Positions 30,725-39,113 of a stretch of 64,000 nucleotides of DNA are shown here, in pieces. Under the pieces are notes generated by a model. The model worked only from the letters and a program-made list of their open reading frames with translations. It was not told the DNA's origin and ran no database searches. The stretch is from Candidatus Acidulodesulfobacterium ferriphilum (lineage in GTDB: Bacteria > SZUA-79 > Acidulodesulfobacterales > Acidulodesulfobacteraceae), in NCBI GenBank assembly GCA_004195035.1, contig SGBD01000001.1, positions 372,001-436,000 of the forward strand. Direction: 5' to 3'. Each line of letters begins with the position of its first letter. The first letter of the stretch is position 1. The position numbers and the translations under genes are program-made.

Positions 30725-30822
30725 TTATAAATTTATATTTATAGTTAATTATAACATTATAGTCAAAAAAGTCAAAATCGCAAGATTTAAAATATGGCGT
30801 CTGCCATATTTAAGCCTGAAAT

Positions 30823-31866
30823 CTAATGCACTTCCAGAATATTTCCTTTGTATCCAAATTTTTCAAGCAGCATTCTACTATTGTTAATACAACCGGCGGT
30901 ACTAAAATGCGTTTCAATAAATAATCCGTTAGATAATTTTTTTGGCGCTCTAAAATTATCCTTATACCTATGTTTAGGTTCTGTATTAATCAGATTTCTT
31001 TTGCGGCCCGTTGGTATCGGACACTCCTTCCTAGTCAATTTACCTTTCTTAATAAGCCATTCCGCAGTATTAGTCAATATTTCCAGAGATTTTCTTACCT
31101 CAAAATAATTACCATTAATTTTAATGCTCTTTGGATTTATGTTTTCTTCAACCTGAGTATTGGTATGTTCTGGCTCAATTTCCTCGGCGGATAAAATTCC
31201 TTCTTTAATCCTCTCTCTTAAAAAATCTTCAATCATCATAGTTTCGAATTTAAAATCCGGATACCCTTCAATTATTATTTTACTAAAAACAGGGGTTAAT
31301 CCTTTTATTATTTCTTCCGGTTCCTCAATCAACGATTTCCAGACCTCATCAAGTATCTTAAGTTTATTTATAAGATTTTCGATATTTTCAATGCTCTCTT
31401 TGCTGATAGTATTTAGTTTTCTTATAACGGCAGTTAATCCATCGCTTTCCATATCCGTTTTCCATACTATTCGCTCTGATACGGTTGTTCCTTCTTCAAA
31501 TGATCTAAATAGTATCCAAATTACCCCGTTGGTTAAAACGCTATATTTCATCCCTTCAGAAAAACAGTATCTCGCTAATTGTTTTAGCGGTGATATATCA
31601 GATTTTTCTTCAATATCTGTAGATAAATTCTTGGCTTCAATAAAAATCACTTTTTTATCGTTTTTAATAAGAACATAATCGGGTATGCCTTTGCCTTCAT
31701 CAATTGAAATATTTGGTTGAACATCTTCGGGATTTTCAGTATCCCAACCTAAACTTCTTAAGAGCGGATTTATTACTTGTTCTCTCACAGCCATTTCGTT
31801 TTGTTCATAAAGAGAACGGTGTTTCTTAATTTTTTCGAGTATATTTTCTACGGTTCCTTTAAGCAT
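30823..31866 (-). CDS. Orphan HsdR-N-type (type I restriction-like) nuclease protein
   Basis: A 347-residue protein whose first half matches the HSDR_N domain of type I restriction enzymes. The PD-(D/E)xK core is intact: Asp63 in IPDYVL, then Glu77 and Lys79 in FIEAK, followed by LARYCFSEGMKYSVLTNG and WILF. The region after about 190 is not recognised; it contains a basic segment and ends in GLFIETHFSTAGC. No helicase, hsdM or hsdS gene is adjacent, so it is not a normal type I system. A strong AGGAGGT site precedes the ATG. Possible roles are defence or repair; function is not established. Confidence 0.75.
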   Translation of the reverse strand: MLKGTVENILEKIKKHRSLYEQNEMAVREQVINPLLRSLGWDTENPEDVQPNISIDEGKGIPDYVLIKNDKKVIFIEAKNLSTDIEEKSDISPLKQLARYCFSEGMKYSVLTNGVIWILFRSFEEGTTVSERIVWKTDMESDGLTAVIRKLNTISKESIENIENLINKLKILDEVWKSLIEEPEEIIKGLTPVFSKIIIEGYPDFKFETMMIEDFLRERIKEGILSAEEIEPEHTNTQVEENINPKSIKINGNYFEVRKSLEILTNTAEWLIKKGKLTRKECPIPTGRKRNLINTEPKHRYKDNFRAPKKLSNGLFIETHFSTAGCINNSRMLLEKFGYKGNILEVH

Positions 31867-31884
31867 TGAGTTTACCTCCTAATT

Positions 31885-31913
31885 ATTTATTTTTACACAA
31901 AAAATTATGACAA
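31885..31913 (-). promoter_or_regulatory. Candidate sigma-70-type promoter
   Basis: On the minus strand, TTGTCA (31913-31908) is separated by 17 bases from ATAAAT (31890-31885). It lies just ahead of the AGGAGGT ribosome-binding site of the HsdR-N-type gene. The area is AT-rich, so a chance match is possible. Confidence 0.3.
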
Positions 31914-32063
31914 GTTCTCATCTATCCGAGCATTTTTAATTTTATTAGACCTTGCCTACATCCAAGTGACGATCAGTATTTGAAGTAAAAGTTGGATAAA
32001 ATTTCCCCGATATATTTAAATACAGACATTTTTATTTCCAAAGTTTTTTATAATTTAAACGCT

Positions 32064-33017
32064 TCAAAAAAGCAAATGTTCATCACAGTCTGAAGAATAT
32101 GCACATAAATCGGATAGACACCATGGTTTTGTCATGTTTCTCCATAATTTTTTGCTATTATTAAAAATCTTTAAGAGTGAGCCCTTTCCATTCCATTCTG
32201 AAAGGCTATATCTTGCAATATCGCAAGGGAACACTTCTTTATTGGGGGATAAAACTAACGTAGTGAAACCGGCAAGGCAATCAATATGTGAATCTCTTGC
32301 TTGAAAATTTGTAATTGTTGGGTTTTTATCATTAAAATTTGAAACAGCTATAGATTTAGATATTGCAATATCTTTTATTTGCGGAATGATTTCAGCGGAA
32401 AATATATCTCTTTCGATAGCACTCAGTTCTATTTCTGGATGACCCATAACATTCATTAAATGAAATCGGCTGGTAAATTTACTAAAAAAATCTATAGCCT
32501 CAGAAATGTCTAAAAAATTATATTTATTTATAACTATTCCTATAGAAGGGGATAATTCTTTATTGCCAGCTTCTTCAACTAAATTCATAAAACCTCTATA
32601 AGTTTCATTATATAATTGTCTGGTTTTATTATGGATATCCGGCGTATGACCGTCAAAACTGATTTGAATAAAAGGTATTATTTCAAGTTCAAATAACGAT
32701 TTTGCAATTTCTTTGCCGATAAATGTGCCATTTGAAACTATTGATATTCCAAGTTTAGCTGATTTGATTATTTCAATAAATTTCAATATATCTTTATGAA
32801 TAAACGGTTCTCCGCCGCTTAAATTTATATCAAATATTCCAATCTCGTTGGCTTCCTCGACAATTAACGAGAAATCTTCAAGGCTAATATCGCAATTTTC
32901 TCTTTTATTATAGCCAAATCTATCATAACAGTACTTACAATTTAAATTGCACCTATCGGTTATTTCAATAACCAAAAGCAACGGAGATCGCAAATCTAAA
33001 TTATTTTGTTTGTTCAT
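32064..33017 (-). CDS. Radical SAM enzyme with SPASM/twitch-like C-terminus
   Basis: A 317-residue radical SAM protein. The CX3CX2C cluster motif is Cys23, Cys27 and Cys30 (DRCNLNCKYCYD), with INLSGGEPFIH and ISFDGHTPDIHNKTR typical of the fold. A C-terminal set of Cys247 (CLAG), Cys265, Cys300, Cys305 and Cys311 resembles a SPASM or twitch domain binding an auxiliary iron-sulfur cluster. Such enzymes often modify peptides. The frame opens at 33131, but those 38 extra residues lie over the 79-residue gene in another frame and look non-coding; ATG at 33017 leaves a 17-base overlap suited to translational coupling. The substrate is unknown. Confidence 0.82.
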   Translation of the reverse strand: MNKQNNLDLRSPLLLVIEITDRCNLNCKYCYDRFGYNKRENCDISLEDFSLIVEEANEIGIFDINLSGGEPFIHKDILKFIEIIKSAKLGISIVSNGTFIGKEIAKSLFELEIIPFIQISFDGHTPDIHNKTRQLYNETYRGFMNLVEEAGNKELSPSIGIVINKYNFLDISEAIDFFSKFTSRFHLMNVMGHPEIELSAIERDIFSAEIIPQIKDIAISKSIAVSNFNDKNPTITNFQARDSHIDCLAGFTTLVLSPNKEVFPCDIARYSLSEWNGKGSLLKIFNNSKKLWRNMTKPWCLSDLCAYSSDCDEHLLF

Positions 33018-33240
33018 GACTGATAAACTCGTTAAAAGCTTCTTCGTCCATTTTCCATATAATCCCTTCCTTATCCTGAACAGTATAATTATTTTCTCCC
33101 TCTTTTCTCCATCTATATTGACTTGAAACATAAGGGGATATTCTGCTGCCCCATTGATAATTCCAGTGCCCGCTCCATTTTTGTATTGAAGATTTTGGCT
33201 CCATGGTGTAAATGGAATCTAAAAAAACTTCTTTTTTCAT
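33001..33240 (-). CDS. 79-residue Trp/Tyr-rich protein; possible peptide substrate or PqqD-like partner
   Basis: Not recognised as a known family. A GGGAGAT ribosome-binding site lies directly upstream of the ATG. Residues 22-44 are dense in aromatics: Trp22, Trp26 and Trp30 at four-residue spacing, Trp44, and Tyr28, Tyr37 and Tyr42. Residues 37-75 could form two beta-hairpins and a helix (YTVQDKEGIIWKMDEEAFNEF), which resembles the first half of a PqqD/RRE peptide-binding domain. Its 3' end overlaps the radical SAM gene by 17 bases. It may be the substrate of that enzyme or a small recognition protein; both are inferences from position and composition. Confidence 0.6.
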   Translation of the reverse strand: MKKEVFLDSIYTMEPKSSIQKWSGHWNYQWGSRISPYVSSQYRWRKEGENNYTVQDKEGIIWKMDEEAFNEFISHEQTK

Positions 33241-33316
33241 ATTGAATCTCCCATATTAAACTGAATTAAAATTTTACACAGCATAAAAAGCTCGCACCAT
33301 CAAGGCTTTATATAAT

Positions 33317-33345
33317 AATATATAATCTAATTATAAAATATTCAA
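33317..33345 (-). promoter_or_regulatory. Candidate sigma-70-type promoter
   Basis: On the minus strand, TTGAAT (33345-33340) and TATATT (33322-33317) are 17 bases apart, about 76 bases upstream of the 79-residue gene. This would let the small gene and the radical SAM gene be transcribed apart from the TPR gene. The very AT-rich surroundings limit confidence. Confidence 0.3.
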
Positions 33346-33439
33346 GTTAAGTTAAATTTTATTTAATTTGGCAATATATAAATTCATAATACTTGTGAGT
33401 TTAAATTTAATACGGTATATAAAAATTTAAATATATTGC

Positions 33440-35734
33440 TCAATATTTCTTTTCAAGGAGAGATGGTTCACCAAGAATTACCTTATTAACATTTTCCTCA
33501 TTTGATTTAATTTCATATTTTGCAATTATAGCATCTATTATTAAACCCAATCCCAATCCTATAATTATTCCAAAAAATGATTTAAATTCAGGGATTAAAT
33601 TAAGCAAATCAATAAAAATACCAATTATCAAAAAAGCAATTCCAAGCAACATCATTAAAGATTCAATAAAAGATATATTTGATATTATATTTTCTATAAT
33701 TACATTTGAATATAAAATTGGATGACGAAGATTACACAAATGTGCGCGTATTATTTTACAATAGGAAAGATAATTATAAGCCTTAATTCTATAGTTAAAA
33801 GCCTCGGCTGTAATGTTTTTATCCATATTTTTTTTAGGTCTTGCATTTACAACTTTTGTGAAATCATTGATAGACTCTTTATATAGCTCCAACTCATAAT
33901 TTGCCAATCCCCTAAGCCTGTAAGCTTCAGTATTTTTATCATTTATTCTAATAGCTTCGGTAAAAAAATTGATAGCTTCAGGGTAGCTTTCCAAATTAAG
34001 GTAGGCTCTCCCTTTGTCAATATAAATCTCGTCATAATAATCGTATTTTTGATAATCATCCTGATTTATTTCTATTTTTATGGCTTCTTCCCAATCATTC
34101 TTAGCTTTTTGGATGTTATCGTAGTTAGCCAATGCTCTGTAATTATAGGCCTTTATAGATTTTGGATCTATTTTAATTGTGTTTGTAAAATCTTCGATAG
34201 CCTCTTTGTATTTTCTTAAAAAAAGGTAAGATCTTCCTCTAAGGAAGTAAGCATTATCACATTCTTGAAATAATTTTATAGCTTTTGTGCAATCCTTAAT
34301 GGTTGCACTATAATCATTTAAATTAAAATGATTTATTCCTCTGTCGGCATAAGCATAGCTTAATTCTTTTGCATCTTTTTCTTTTGTTATTACTATTTTG
34401 AGATCTTTAATAGCTTTTTGATATTTACCCATTCTAAAATAAACAGAGGCTCTAAATGAGTAAAACTCATTATTATTTGAATTTGTTTTTATTGCTTTTG
34501 TGTGGTCATGTACGGCTTTTCGATATTTGCGTAAATTATAATAGGTCGTTCCTCTATTTTTATAGTACTCAGCATTCTTAGAATTAATTCTTATTGCTTC
34601 AGAAAAATCACTTATAGCCTCTTTGTTTTTTTCGCCTGAATCAAGATATGATAACCCCCTATTATTAAAGAATTCAGCATTTTTATTGTCTAGTTCTATA
34701 GCCTTTGTAAAATCGGAGATAGCCTTGTTATAATTGTCGGGATTATCGGGACCTAAAGAAGCAAAAGCTGCGCCACGATAATTATAAGCATCTGCAAACT
34801 CTTTTTTAATCTCTATAGCCTCTGTAAAATCGTCAATGGCTTTATTAATAATATTTCCATATTCTTCATTATTTTTTAAATTGCGCAAATAAAAATAAGC
34901 TAATCCCCTGTTATTGTAAGCTTCTGCATTTTTGTCATCTAATTTTATAGCCTCTGTAAAATCGTCAATAGCATTATTTATAGTATCTTCATATTTTCTA
35001 TCATTACCTTTTTGTTGTTCGCTATAATCAAAATATGTTAGTCCCCTGTTATTGTAGGTTTTGGAATTTCTATCATTTAATTTTATAGCTTCTGTGAAAT
35101 CGTCGAAAGCCTTCTGAAATTTTTTTAAATCTCGAAAAGTTGAACCTCTATTATTATACGCATCAGTATATTCTTTATTTATTTCTATGGCTTTTGTAAA
35201 GTCGTCAATGGCTTTATCATATTCTTTTAAAGAGCCATAGGACATTCCTCTAAAATTATAAACCTCTGCGTCATCATGTTTTGATTCTAAATCTAATTTT
35301 ATAACTTCTGTGAAATCGCTAATGGCCTCCTCATATTTTTTTAGTTCGTAATAAATTCGTCCTCTTCGCATATAAGCACATCTTGGATAATTAGGAAACT
35401 CTCCTGTATTAGTCAATTTTAGTTCAATTATATAATCTTTAATGGTTTTAATATATTTTTCTTTTAAGAAAGGATAATAACGGCTTTTTATTTGAAAATT
35501 AATATTAATATAATCAGGGTTAAGTTCTGTAGCTTTTATGTAATCATTGATAGCTTTATGGTAATGCCCTAAAGCAGCAAAAGTCATACCTCTAAAATTG
35601 TATGCTTCCGCATTTTTATCGTTTATTCTTAAAACTTTCGAAAAACTTTCTTTAGCTTTTTTATAAAATCTTAAATAAAAAAGAATAATGCCAATATAAT
35701 AATTTGTTTTTATTATTAATTGCGATTTGTTCAT
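33440..35734 (-). CDS. Large TPR-repeat protein with C-terminal membrane segments
   Basis: A 764-residue protein made of about 16 TPR units of 34 residues (some with inserts of 8-12 residues), most reading AYNNRG...KAIDDFTEAIKLD. The repeats run from about residue 10 to 660. They are followed by two hydrophobic segments (about 690-712 and 718-738) and a short charged tail, so the TPR array would be membrane-tethered. No catalytic domain is visible. TPR arrays bind other proteins; the partner is unknown. It lies between the restriction gene and the small protein/radical SAM pair and belongs to the accessory island. Confidence 0.85.
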   Translation of the reverse strand: MNKSQLIIKTNYYIGIILFYLRFYKKAKESFSKVLRINDKNAEAYNFRGMTFAALGHYHKAINDYIKATELNPDYININFQIKSRYYPFLKEKYIKTIKDYIIELKLTNTGEFPNYPRCAYMRRGRIYYELKKYEEAISDFTEVIKLDLESKHDDAEVYNFRGMSYGSLKEYDKAIDDFTKAIEINKEYTDAYNNRGSTFRDLKKFQKAFDDFTEAIKLNDRNSKTYNNRGLTYFDYSEQQKGNDRKYEDTINNAIDDFTEAIKLDDKNAEAYNNRGLAYFYLRNLKNNEEYGNIINKAIDDFTEAIEIKKEFADAYNYRGAAFASLGPDNPDNYNKAISDFTKAIELDNKNAEFFNNRGLSYLDSGEKNKEAISDFSEAIRINSKNAEYYKNRGTTYYNLRKYRKAVHDHTKAIKTNSNNNEFYSFRASVYFRMGKYQKAIKDLKIVITKEKDAKELSYAYADRGINHFNLNDYSATIKDCTKAIKLFQECDNAYFLRGRSYLFLRKYKEAIEDFTNTIKIDPKSIKAYNYRALANYDNIQKAKNDWEEAIKIEINQDDYQKYDYYDEIYIDKGRAYLNLESYPEAINFFTEAIRINDKNTEAYRLRGLANYELELYKESINDFTKVVNARPKKNMDKNITAEAFNYRIKAYNYLSYCKIIRAHLCNLRHPILYSNVIIENIISNISFIESLMMLLGIAFLIIGIFIDLLNLIPEFKSFFGIIIGLGLGLIIDAIIAKYEIKSNEENVNKVILGEPSLLEKKY

Positions 35735-35806
35735 ATCCTAAAATCCAATAAATACATATTATTTAAATTCCATACTGGCATATTTTTTGTTTTGTATAAC
35801 AAAAAT

Positions 35807-36601
35807 CTATATAATCACGTTAGCTTTTCCATAAAGCAAAGGAAGCGCGTTCTGCCTCATCCTAAATTTCGTTCCATGATTGTGTCCGGTGCGGGCATCG
35901 AAATCTACCAATATTTTTCCGTCTTCGATTGCTTTTAAAAAGCCCGCGAAATTAAACTTCTGCAACATCATAACTTTTGAATATTTATAAAACTCTTTAG
36001 CTTTCTCCTTTTTAACTTCCGCCTGAACATAAAAACAATTTAAAAGTTTTGTTCCCGCTTTATGTTCTAAATCATCAAAACCCCAATATGGTTGCGGATC
36101 TAATTCCCCAAGCCCTATATTCTCCTTAACCGTCTTAAGCCAATCGGCATGCCTTATATCAACGGCTTTGGCATCGAAGGAAATTAAAACCTTTCTTTCC
36201 TTCCTGTCTATAACGACCATGAAGCCCCTATCGCTCCTTGATAATCCATGGATAGTCTGCCTGAAACTCATTTCGTTTTCAGGATAATGTTTGCCTGCCT
36301 CTTTATGCGGCCAGCCGTATCTTTGCAAAAAGACTTGCGGTACGAAACGAATAGCTCTTGGGGAAGGCTCCGTATGGAATAAGGTGGTAAGAGACGTGGA
36401 GTTAATGCGTTGCGATTTAAGTTCCCACTCGGCTGCATTTGGAATCGGTAAATTATTCTCTTTAATACCAAGCAAGTCTTCCAAGGTATTCCCGATTCCG
36501 CCGTGGTTTCCTTTGCGGGCGTTTGGAATCCAGCCTATTGCATAAATTTCTTTTAATTTATCTATTAAAGTTTGTTTTGTATATATTACAGGTTTTTTCA
36601 T
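35807..36601 (-). CDS. MvaI/BcnI-family type II restriction endonuclease
   Basis: A 264-residue protein resembling the MvaI/BcnI family, whose members act as monomers on CCWGG or CCSGG. Family-like parts are NARKGNHGGIGNTLEDLLGI near the N-terminus, the nuclease strand EWELKSQ (Glu60 and Lys62 as the ExK pair) and the C-terminal FDARTGHNHGTKFR. The residue five before Glu60, where PD-ExK enzymes carry Asp, is Asn55, so activity is uncertain. It overlaps the methyltransferase stop by four bases (ATGA), which means methyltransferase first, nuclease second. Target specificity is only inferred from family. Confidence 0.82.
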   Translation of the reverse strand: MKKPVIYTKQTLIDKLKEIYAIGWIPNARKGNHGGIGNTLEDLLGIKENNLPIPNAAEWELKSQRINSTSLTTLFHTEPSPRAIRFVPQVFLQRYGWPHKEAGKHYPENEMSFRQTIHGLSRSDRGFMVVIDRKERKVLISFDAKAVDIRHADWLKTVKENIGLGELDPQPYWGFDDLEHKAGTKLLNCFYVQAEVKKEKAKEFYKYSKVMMLQKFNFAGFLKAIEDGKILVDFDARTGHNHGTKFRMRQNALPLLYGKANVII

Positions 36602-37374
36602 ACCATAGAAAAGAGCTTGCCTTGGGATAAATGTTTTTTAATCCGTTCTTCCGCCATGCCGCAATATTCAGGGGATATTTCAATTCCTATATAATCCCTG
36701 TTAAAATTAATCGCTGAAATAGCGGTCGTTCCGGAACCCATAAACGGGTCTAAAACAATTTTGGCATCGGTCGAGGATATAATCCTGTCAATAAGACTGA
36801 TGGGAAATGCGGCGGGGTGGTCGTTTTTCATCTCTTGCGTAAATTCCCACACATCGCCGTATCTATTGGCTTTTTCTATAAGTTTGAATTTTGGTTTTGC
36901 AATAAGGTAGATAACTTCGTAGGTAGGTAAAAAATAGCCGGGGTTAAAATTCAGCCCCCCTTTTCTTTTCCATATAATAATTTGTCTTACGGGAAAACCC
37001 GAAACTATGTCCTGCCTATCCTGCAGGATTCCGGCTTGAACGCGCCATTTATGGTTGTAGAAAATAGCCCCCGAATCTGGAATTATCCTGAACATTTCTT
37101 TAAGGCAATCCCTTTGCCATTTTACATATTTATCATGAGGCATACAATCATTGTGGTGGGAATAGCCTTTCTGAAGGGCGGCATTTGCCCATTTCCCGCC
37201 GCGGCCGTCTTTCATGCCGTTTCCGGTAGAATTTTTTAAATTATACGGCGGCGAGGTAATAACTAAATCAACGGAACCGCCGGGGATTTGCTTCATAATA
37301 TTTACGGCATCTCCGCAAACTATTTGATTTGTAAAGTCTTCAGGAAAACGAAGTTCAGCAGAACTTAATTTCAT
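36598..37374 (-). CDS. Type II DNA methyltransferase, beta class (N4-cytosine or N6-adenine)
   Basis: A 258-residue methyltransferase of the beta class: the catalytic motif TSPPYN (residues 40-45) comes before the S-adenosylmethionine motif DPFMGSGTT (209-217). SPPY is common in N4-cytosine enzymes, and known partners of MvaI/BcnI nucleases methylate cytosine N4, so it probably protects the host against the overlapping nuclease gene. N6-adenine specificity is not excluded. No controller protein gene is seen. It is the first gene of the accessory island after murJ; no ribosome-binding site is obvious. Confidence 0.88.
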   Translation of the reverse strand: MKLSSAELRFPEDFTNQIVCGDAVNIMKQIPGGSVDLVITSPPYNLKNSTGNGMKDGRGGKWANAALQKGYSHHNDCMPHDKYVKWQRDCLKEMFRIIPDSGAIFYNHKWRVQAGILQDRQDIVSGFPVRQIIIWKRKGGLNFNPGYFLPTYEVIYLIAKPKFKLIEKANRYGDVWEFTQEMKNDHPAAFPISLIDRIISSTDAKIVLDPFMGSGTTAISAINFNRDYIGIEISPEYCGMAEERIKKHLSQGKLFSMV

Positions 37375-37559
37375 AACTTTAATAGTTTTATCGCCTATTT
37401 ATTGTTTTTATATTATTATAAGCATCGCCGGTTTTTATTTTATAAATTTATCATAATACTTCTTATAATGACCGGTCAAGAAAATTCATCACCTTGCATT
37501 TATTTTATAAACCTTAGCGCTTTTTTATTTTACCCTATATTTTTTAGTTTTCTAATACT

Positions 37560-39113
37560 TTAATATTTTCTCATTAAAACATCCCGCATAACACGCAGCG
37601 AATCGTTTTTGAATATAAATGAAGCAAAAAGGTAAGATGCTATTCCTATGACGAGAGAAACGACTACAATCATTAAAGAACGATAGTTTAACCTGTTTAA
37701 AATAATTATTATAAGCTCGACAAAAACTCCCATAACGATGCTTGCCGCTATTGTCCTTATGAAGGACTTAAAAAAACCGCTTCCCAGTCCTATCCTTTTT
37801 TTTGAATAAAGCCTTCTCAAAAGGAATAAGTAATTAAAAATCAAAGAAATGCTCGAGGCCAAAGCCAATCCGTCAACCCCCATTATTTGCATAAGTATTA
37901 CGGCAAGGATTATGTTAATTATCAAAGAATATACGGCTGCGTTAACGGGGGTCTTAGTATCCTTCATCGAATAAAAAACCGGAACCACGGTCTTTAGCAA
38001 TGCCGATGCCCATAGACCTATAATAAAAAAAAGGAGGACGGATGCCGTTTTTTGCGCATCTATCAAATTAAAAATCCCATGCATATAGATTAATCTTACA
38101 AGATGATTTCTTAATAAGATTAACCCTATACTTGAAGGTATTATTATGAAAAACATAAGGGATGCGGAGAAGTTAAACGCATTATCCACCTCTTTTATAT
38201 CGCCCCTTGCAAAAGAAGCGGAAAGCGCCGGAAAAATTGCCGTTTGCATGGCTATGGCAAATACCCCGAGCGGAAATTGGTAGAGCCTGTCCCCGTAGTA
38301 AAGATATGATATGCTCCCGGACGGCAAAAACGATGCAAGAAGGGTATCGAACAGCAGATTAAGCTGTATTACAGCCATTCCGAGAAGCGAAGGGGTAAGT
38401 AATTTAAAAACGGTCTTTACATCGCTATTTTTAAAATTAAATCTAAATCCCAGCTTGATTTTTTTTCGTTTAATATAGTAAACCTGAGATAAAATCTGCA
38501 AAATGCCGCCGATAATAACCCCGATAGCAAGCGCATATATGCCTTCGTGAAAAAACGGCCTTAAAAAGATAGCGGAAATTATAAATAAAATATTTAATAT
38601 TATGGGATATATTGCACCCGGGGCATAAGAATTATGGACATTTAAAACCCCCGCAAAAAAAGCGGTAAGCCCTATTAAAAATATGTAAGGAAACATCATT
38701 CTGGTAAGAAATACGGTAAGATGAAGTTCAAAGGGCTTATTTAGAAAACCCGGGGCGGTTATAGCGACAAATATAAAAGAAAACAAAACGCCCAGACATG
38801 AGAGAAATAAAAGAATAAAAAAAAGAATTGTGAAAACGGTCATCAAGAGGTCAGAGGATTCCTCCGCCCGCTTTTTAACTAAGCTCTCTGAATAGACAGG
38901 GATAAAGGACGCCGAAAGCCCCCCTTCCCCAAAAAGTCTTCTAAAAAGATTCGGTATCCTGAACGCGACAAAAAAGGCATCGGTAGCAACGCCGGCGCCA
39001 AAAAAATACGCAATACAAATATCCCTTAATAAACCTAAAATTCTGCTTATTAAAGTGAAAAACGAAACTACCGATAAATTCCTGACTATCTCATGATTTT
39101 TGGATTGCGCCAT
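37560..39113 (-). CDS. murJ: Lipid II flippase MurJ
   Basis: Moves lipid II across the inner membrane for peptidoglycan synthesis. The 517-residue protein has about 14 membrane helices of the MOP fold. Family marks are SRILGLLRDICIAYFFGAG at the N-terminus, ATDAFFVAFRIPNLFRRLFGEG, and GSISYLYYGDRLYQFPLGVFAIA in the middle. It starts ten bases after asd and ends the large biosynthetic run; the accessory island lies downstream. Confidence 0.96.
   Translation of the reverse strand: MAQSKNHEIVRNLSVVSFFTLISRILGLLRDICIAYFFGAGVATDAFFVAFRIPNLFRRLFGEGGLSASFIPVYSESLVKKRAEESSDLLMTVFTILFFILLFLSCLGVLFSFIFVAITAPGFLNKPFELHLTVFLTRMMFPYIFLIGLTAFFAGVLNVHNSYAPGAIYPIILNILFIISAIFLRPFFHEGIYALAIGVIIGGILQILSQVYYIKRKKIKLGFRFNFKNSDVKTVFKLLTPSLLGMAVIQLNLLFDTLLASFLPSGSISYLYYGDRLYQFPLGVFAIAMQTAIFPALSASFARGDIKEVDNAFNFSASLMFFIIIPSSIGLILLRNHLVRLIYMHGIFNLIDAQKTASVLLFFIIGLWASALLKTVVPVFYSMKDTKTPVNAAVYSLIINIILAVILMQIMGVDGLALASSISLIFNYLFLLRRLYSKKRIGLGSGFFKSFIRTIAASIVMGVFVELIIIILNRLNYRSLMIVVVSLVIGIASYLFASFIFKNDSLRVMRDVLMRKY

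Follow-up and report, generated by a model that had tools for sequence, protein, structure and literature searches.

A radical SAM enzyme and a small aromatic-rich protein carried together on an inserted island and on ColE1-like plasmids: a candidate enzyme-substrate module

A 64,000-nucleotide stretch of the Candidatus Acidulodesulfobacterium ferriphilum genome (hereafter the window) contains a short gene rich in tryptophan and tyrosine codons that overlaps a radical SAM gene. This arrangement raises the question of whether the small protein is the substrate of the enzyme, a partner assisting the enzyme with some other substrate, or the business end of a conflict system.

The gene pair in the window

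The small gene lies on the minus strand at 33001..33240 and encodes 79 residues, among them Trp 22, 26, 30, 44, and 62 and Tyr 11, 28, 37, 42, and 52. It has its own ribosome-binding site, GGGAG, seven bases 5' of the ATG (33248..33252, minus strand). An earlier note on this DNA had counted five residues each of Trp and Tyr in the encoded protein, and all of its residue numbers were correct. Besides the open reading frame and ribosome-binding site, plasmid homologues and purifying selection, both described below, support the gene. The enzyme frame is open as far as an ATG at 33131, and the plasmid relatives (MFELKSPLLLVIDIT...) support a start at 33017 (MNKQNNLDLRSPLLLVIEIT...). With that start, the enzyme gene occupies 32064..33017 of the minus strand, encodes 317 residues, and overlaps the small gene by 17 bases (33001..33017, minus strand).

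The enzyme belongs to the radical SAM superfamily, matching Pfam Radical_SAM (PF04055) at 3.4e-20 with 73.3 bits against a cut-off of 29.5. The CX3CX2C motif, at residues 23/27/30 in the window enzyme, is also present in the plasmid versions, and a GGEP motif is found at 68-71. The five C-terminal cysteines listed in the earlier note were confirmed, with the arrangement 247-x17-265-x34-300-x4-305-x5-311; the corresponding spacings in the plasmid enzymes are x17, x34, x2, and x2. A SPASM domain has a Cys pair followed by CX2CX5CX3C and a last Cys, while a twitch domain has fewer. The window enzyme has the pair, C-x17-C, and three further cysteines, and the final SPASM set is missing. The SPASM model scored 13.6 bits against 27 on this region (E 0.07), and AlbA matched the same C-terminus at 7.5e-5. 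By sequence, the C-terminus thus looks like a truncated SPASM or twitch-like domain that stops before the last cysteines.

The best profile match in the PDB, at 1.7e-17, was to 5v1q/5v1s/5v1t, which we take to be SuiB, the Lys-Trp crosslinking enzyme of streptide. This alignment starts at SuiB residue 124, which excludes the N-terminal domain (residues 1-123), and covers the core and the sequence beyond it up to and including the first C-terminal Cys pair. SuiB carries both an N-terminal RRE and a SPASM domain (PMC8326336). In NCBIfam, the top match of the window enzyme by E-value was WgkB, at 92.5 of the 650 bits required, and the plasmid enzyme matched GeoRSP first and WgkB second. We did not retain assignment as a KxxxW/WGK crosslinking maturase, as these scores and that of the KxxxW maturase model against the plasmid enzyme (74 of 500 bits) are far under the curated cut-offs and an N-terminal RRE of the SuiB type is lacking. 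Assignment as a prokaryotic viperin was likewise set aside (NCBIfam viperin model, 67.5 bits against a cut-off of 180). With scores far below every cut-off, and dominated by a core barrel that also occurs in many enzymes not acting on peptides, MoaA and viperin among them, the matches point toward modification of a peptide or protein and fall short of a family assignment.

When the small protein was searched against Pfam, NCBIfam, and PHROGs, no family scored above its cut-off, in keeping with the earlier statement that it belongs to no recognized class. The Pfam and NCBIfam searches gave no PqqD match. A profile comparison with PqqD/MftB was also negative, and the positive control of the same comparison likewise failed. 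Single-sequence AlphaFold2 left residues 1-38 unfolded (pLDDT < 50) and gave a low-confidence model in which residues 42-78 form three strands and a single helix (pLDDT ~72-86), and for which Foldseek returned no significant match. We could recognize no leader or cleavage site in the sequence.

A separate resemblance was seen in the plasmid small proteins (L022:5005-5229 and L023:3562-3786), whose residues 27-64 align ungapped with a segment of the TIGR01365 type of phosphoserine transaminase, SerC (WNGTTSG...W...ICDAT; E 0.004). Weak agreement came from a profile of two sequences and from 3,000 shuffles. The window protein lacks the TSG and CDxT residues of the match, and we did not adopt SerC ancestry; the similarity is probably a coincidence and possibly a trace of descent.

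The pair as a travelling unit

The small protein was used in a tblastn search of annotated plasmids, and six records were returned at ~38% identity over residues 6-74 (1e-13). Of these plasmids, one is from Escherichia marmotae (7,680 bp) and five are from Klebsiella (4,773 bp each), and all are ColE1-like. A close relative of the enzyme was encoded in each of the six, and it adjoined the small gene in all three records whose annotation was inspected. Searched separately against the plasmid collection, the enzyme had as its sole close relative the very gene paired with the small gene (41-42% identity), all other matches being at or below 30%. As each gene, searched on its own, led to the other, the pairing is real. 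The two are the only protein-coding genes common to the plasmids and the window island described below; no other coding frame is shared. With related copies on Enterobacteriaceae plasmids of 4.8 to 7.7 kb, easily handled in laboratory E. coli, a single odd gene pair becomes a testable system.

The earlier note had made its proposal depend on homologous radical SAM genes having a conserved small neighbor and on the small frame being conserved as protein. Such a neighbor is present beside the close enzyme relatives found on plasmids, and between the Escherichia and Klebsiella plasmid versions dN/dS is ~0.055 for both genes. A partner gene conserved beside the enzyme is what would be expected of a RiPP precursor with its maturase. 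The 17-base overlap, which the note had also pointed to, is present in the window but is not a conserved feature of the pair: the plasmid genes are divergently transcribed with ~135 bases between them, whereas those of the window overlap head to tail. Adjacency has been kept despite the changed arrangement, which makes the overlap a local detail.

In the window, the pair lies within an inserted island of 6.8 kb between phoH and murJ (30780..37575), which is marked by an empty site in relatives, by its GC content (32% versus 37-40% in the flanks), and by matches to restriction-modification models. The insertion site is empty in G001, G002, G005, and others, and in the nearest genomes ~100-650 bases separate murJ from phoH. 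Besides the pair, the island encodes the restriction enzyme and the methyltransferase of a type II system, a TPR protein, and a protein with the HSDR_N domain that type I restriction enzymes carry at their N-terminus. No integrase was seen between 30780 and 37575. The TPR protein has 764 residues, with hydrophobic segments at its C-terminus. In one relative (G007, locus L002, contig C29, near 1501-1614), a fragment of the small gene covering residues 37-74 at 79% identity adjoins a transposase-like frame, and no related enzyme was found in that genome at E 1e-20; we regard the fragment as a decayed copy. Given the insertion, the empty sites, and this fragment, the pair appears to be cargo that comes and goes, and its co-occurrence in unrelated replicons makes it a real travelling unit.

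The pair is also rare in the collections searched. Among 386 genomes, the enzyme profile found this genome alone at 1e-30, and the small-protein profile found this genome, the G007 fragment, and G278, the last probably by chance. A looser enzyme match in G058 was dismissed as a longer enzyme of another type without a small partner of this kind alongside. A scan of GTDB r220 contigs for W..HW[ND][YF][QE]W, which requires near-exact conservation and would let diverged members escape, gave 24 matches; a related enzyme adjoined none of them, and they were judged to be chance. In viral contigs, the small-protein profile had no match and the enzyme profile had only remote partial matches (27-31%). 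A DNA pattern for HWNYQW gave 48 matches in viral sequences with no convincing homologue (best E 0.0016). No further copy of the pair was found in phages, and complete E. coli genomes nowhere covered 80% of the query. Literature searches returned no description of the pair, and we know of no described system like it.

Two uncharacterized genes on the Klebsiella plasmid (L023:1179-1592 and L023:1710-2000) are absent from the frames it shares with the Escherichia plasmid. The latter has a sub-threshold match to the five-fold beta-flower protein family.

Where conservation falls, and what the pair may do

Conservation in the small protein is unevenly placed. Between the plasmid lineages, codons 1-39 carry 14 silent changes (one of them an ATG/GTG start-codon difference) and no amino-acid changes, and codons 40-74 carry 9 silent and 7 amino-acid changes (Fisher p 0.004-0.007). 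The window and plasmid proteins agree at 19 of 35 N-terminal positions and at 9 of 39 C-terminal positions (Fisher p 0.008). The split points were picked post hoc, so that these p-values are somewhat optimistic. The conserved N-terminal sequence is LDSxYxxEPKxxIxxWxxHWNYQWxxR, whose conserved positions are identical in all three sequences compared (the window and two plasmid versions); as these form only two independent groups, the motif is invariant on few comparisons. Its aromatic part, WxxHWNYQWxxR, has at its core W22-S-G-H-W26-N-Y-Q-W30 (codons at 33151..33177, minus strand), followed by R33, and is the proposed region of modification.

A substrate with a recognition tail would be expected to combine, as here, a conserved unfolded N-terminal part with a folded part that is less conserved, and the opposite would be expected of a recognition protein. 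The pattern thus favors a substrate role for the small protein over a recognition role, and a PqqD-like protein would account for it less well than an N-terminal part that is protected and probably modified. Our preferred reading, which we rate as evenly balanced between right and wrong, is that the pair is a mobile enzyme-substrate module in which the enzyme modifies, and most likely crosslinks, the small protein, and the product acts inside the cell. The enzyme, with a core barrel, a truncated SPASM/twitch-like domain, and no built-in recognition domain, would bind the 79-residue protein, probably through the folded beta-beta-beta-alpha part at its C-terminus. A 5'-deoxyadenosyl radical and an auxiliary iron-sulfur cluster would then be used to modify, most likely by crosslinking, residues of the flexible conserved N-terminal stretch, and the modified protein would work intracellularly rather than be exported. 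We infer this interaction, the substrate role, the crosslink, and the intracellular action from the features described above. Against a substrate role, typical precursors are shorter and less folded than the small protein. A more specific version is possible and decidedly tentative: an undescribed mobile module whose enzyme, of a new radical SAM subfamily, would place a crosslink or a Trp-derived group on WxxHWNYQWxxR of a small folded protein with an intracellular role, for example in defence or plasmid maintenance. Few enzymes modify small folded proteins rather than leader-bearing peptides, and either a novel chemistry at Trp/Tyr or a novel function linked to plasmids or defence would be informative if true.

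The small protein might instead be a recognition or activation partner, such as a PqqD/RRE-like chaperone or a small subunit, with another peptide or a small molecule as the true substrate. The enzyme does lack the N-terminal domain found in SuiB (residues 1-123), PqqE and MftC each have beside them a separate small protein of about this size (PqqD and MftB, respectively), and the modeled three strands and helix resemble the first half of an RRE-type domain. The model nonetheless has one C-terminal helix where the RRE fold has three (PMC8326336), and its low confidence together with the lack of a PqqD match in Pfam or NCBIfam led us not to classify the small protein as a PqqD/RRE protein. As the folded part is also the less conserved one, and no third shared gene is available as a possible substrate, we consider this role unlikely. 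Export of a modified peptide, a bacteriocin-like RiPP whose N-terminal or central stretch would be excised after modification, appears more doubtful still. It would suit the ColE1 plasmids, of which bacteriocins are typical (PMC8683028), and the nearest enzymes, which make crosslinked Trp/Tyr/Lys peptides (PMC8326336). Yet no transporter, protease, or immunity gene is common to the three contexts (the island and two plasmid lineages), no leader-like cleavage site is apparent, and the C-terminal domain of the small protein is kept under selection. The lack of a shared transporter or protease is what makes an intracellular product likelier than a secreted one.

The remaining alternative concerns purpose and is compatible with the preferred enzyme-substrate reading. 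The pair may be a conflict module serving in anti-phage defence, as a toxin-antitoxin system, or in plasmid maintenance. In such a module, the enzyme might activate the small protein or render it harmless, or it might produce a small antiviral molecule while the small protein acts as regulator. Literature on ColE1-like plasmids lists restriction-modification, toxin-antitoxin, abortive-infection, and bacteriocin genes among their cargo (PMC8683028), and the pair resides on small plasmids of this type, known carriers of conflict genes, and adjoins a type II restriction-modification system in the island. The company that the pair keeps weakly suggests a conflict or plasmid-maintenance purpose, and the enzyme weakly matches the PADLOC models of prokaryotic viperins. 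Closeness to defence genes is no proof, however; the NCBIfam viperin score falls well short of its cut-off, and no effector domain was recognized. We regard a conflict module as improbable on balance.

Relation to known systems

Prokaryotic viperins share with the window enzyme a radical SAM core in a defence-like neighborhood and the weak PADLOC match, but the window enzyme carries an additional C-terminal Cys set and reached 67.5 of 180 bits. SuiB and WgkB, which crosslink Lys to Trp, likewise combine a radical SAM core with a Trp-rich partner encoded alongside. The window enzyme differs from these in having no N-terminal RRE and a shorter C-terminus with five Cys, and its partner is predicted to be a folded protein of 74-79 residues rather than a short leader-core peptide. 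In PqqE/PqqD and MftC/MftB, a radical SAM/SPASM enzyme is also encoded beside a small protein of 80-100 residues. The small protein of the window, however, has no PqqD/RRE signal, the enzymes are 20-30% identical, and a separate precursor gene like the mftA of the MftC/MftB system was not found here.

A different kind of comparison is offered by anSME, the anaerobic sulfatase-maturating enzyme. The small protein is not a sulfatase and has no sulfatase-type motif, and the window enzyme does not have the full SPASM Cys set. What the two would have in common, granted the modification proposed here, is a radical SAM/SPASM enzyme acting on a folded protein rather than on a peptide natural product, and a weak profile match between anSME and the window enzyme (9.3e-9) extends over most of its length.
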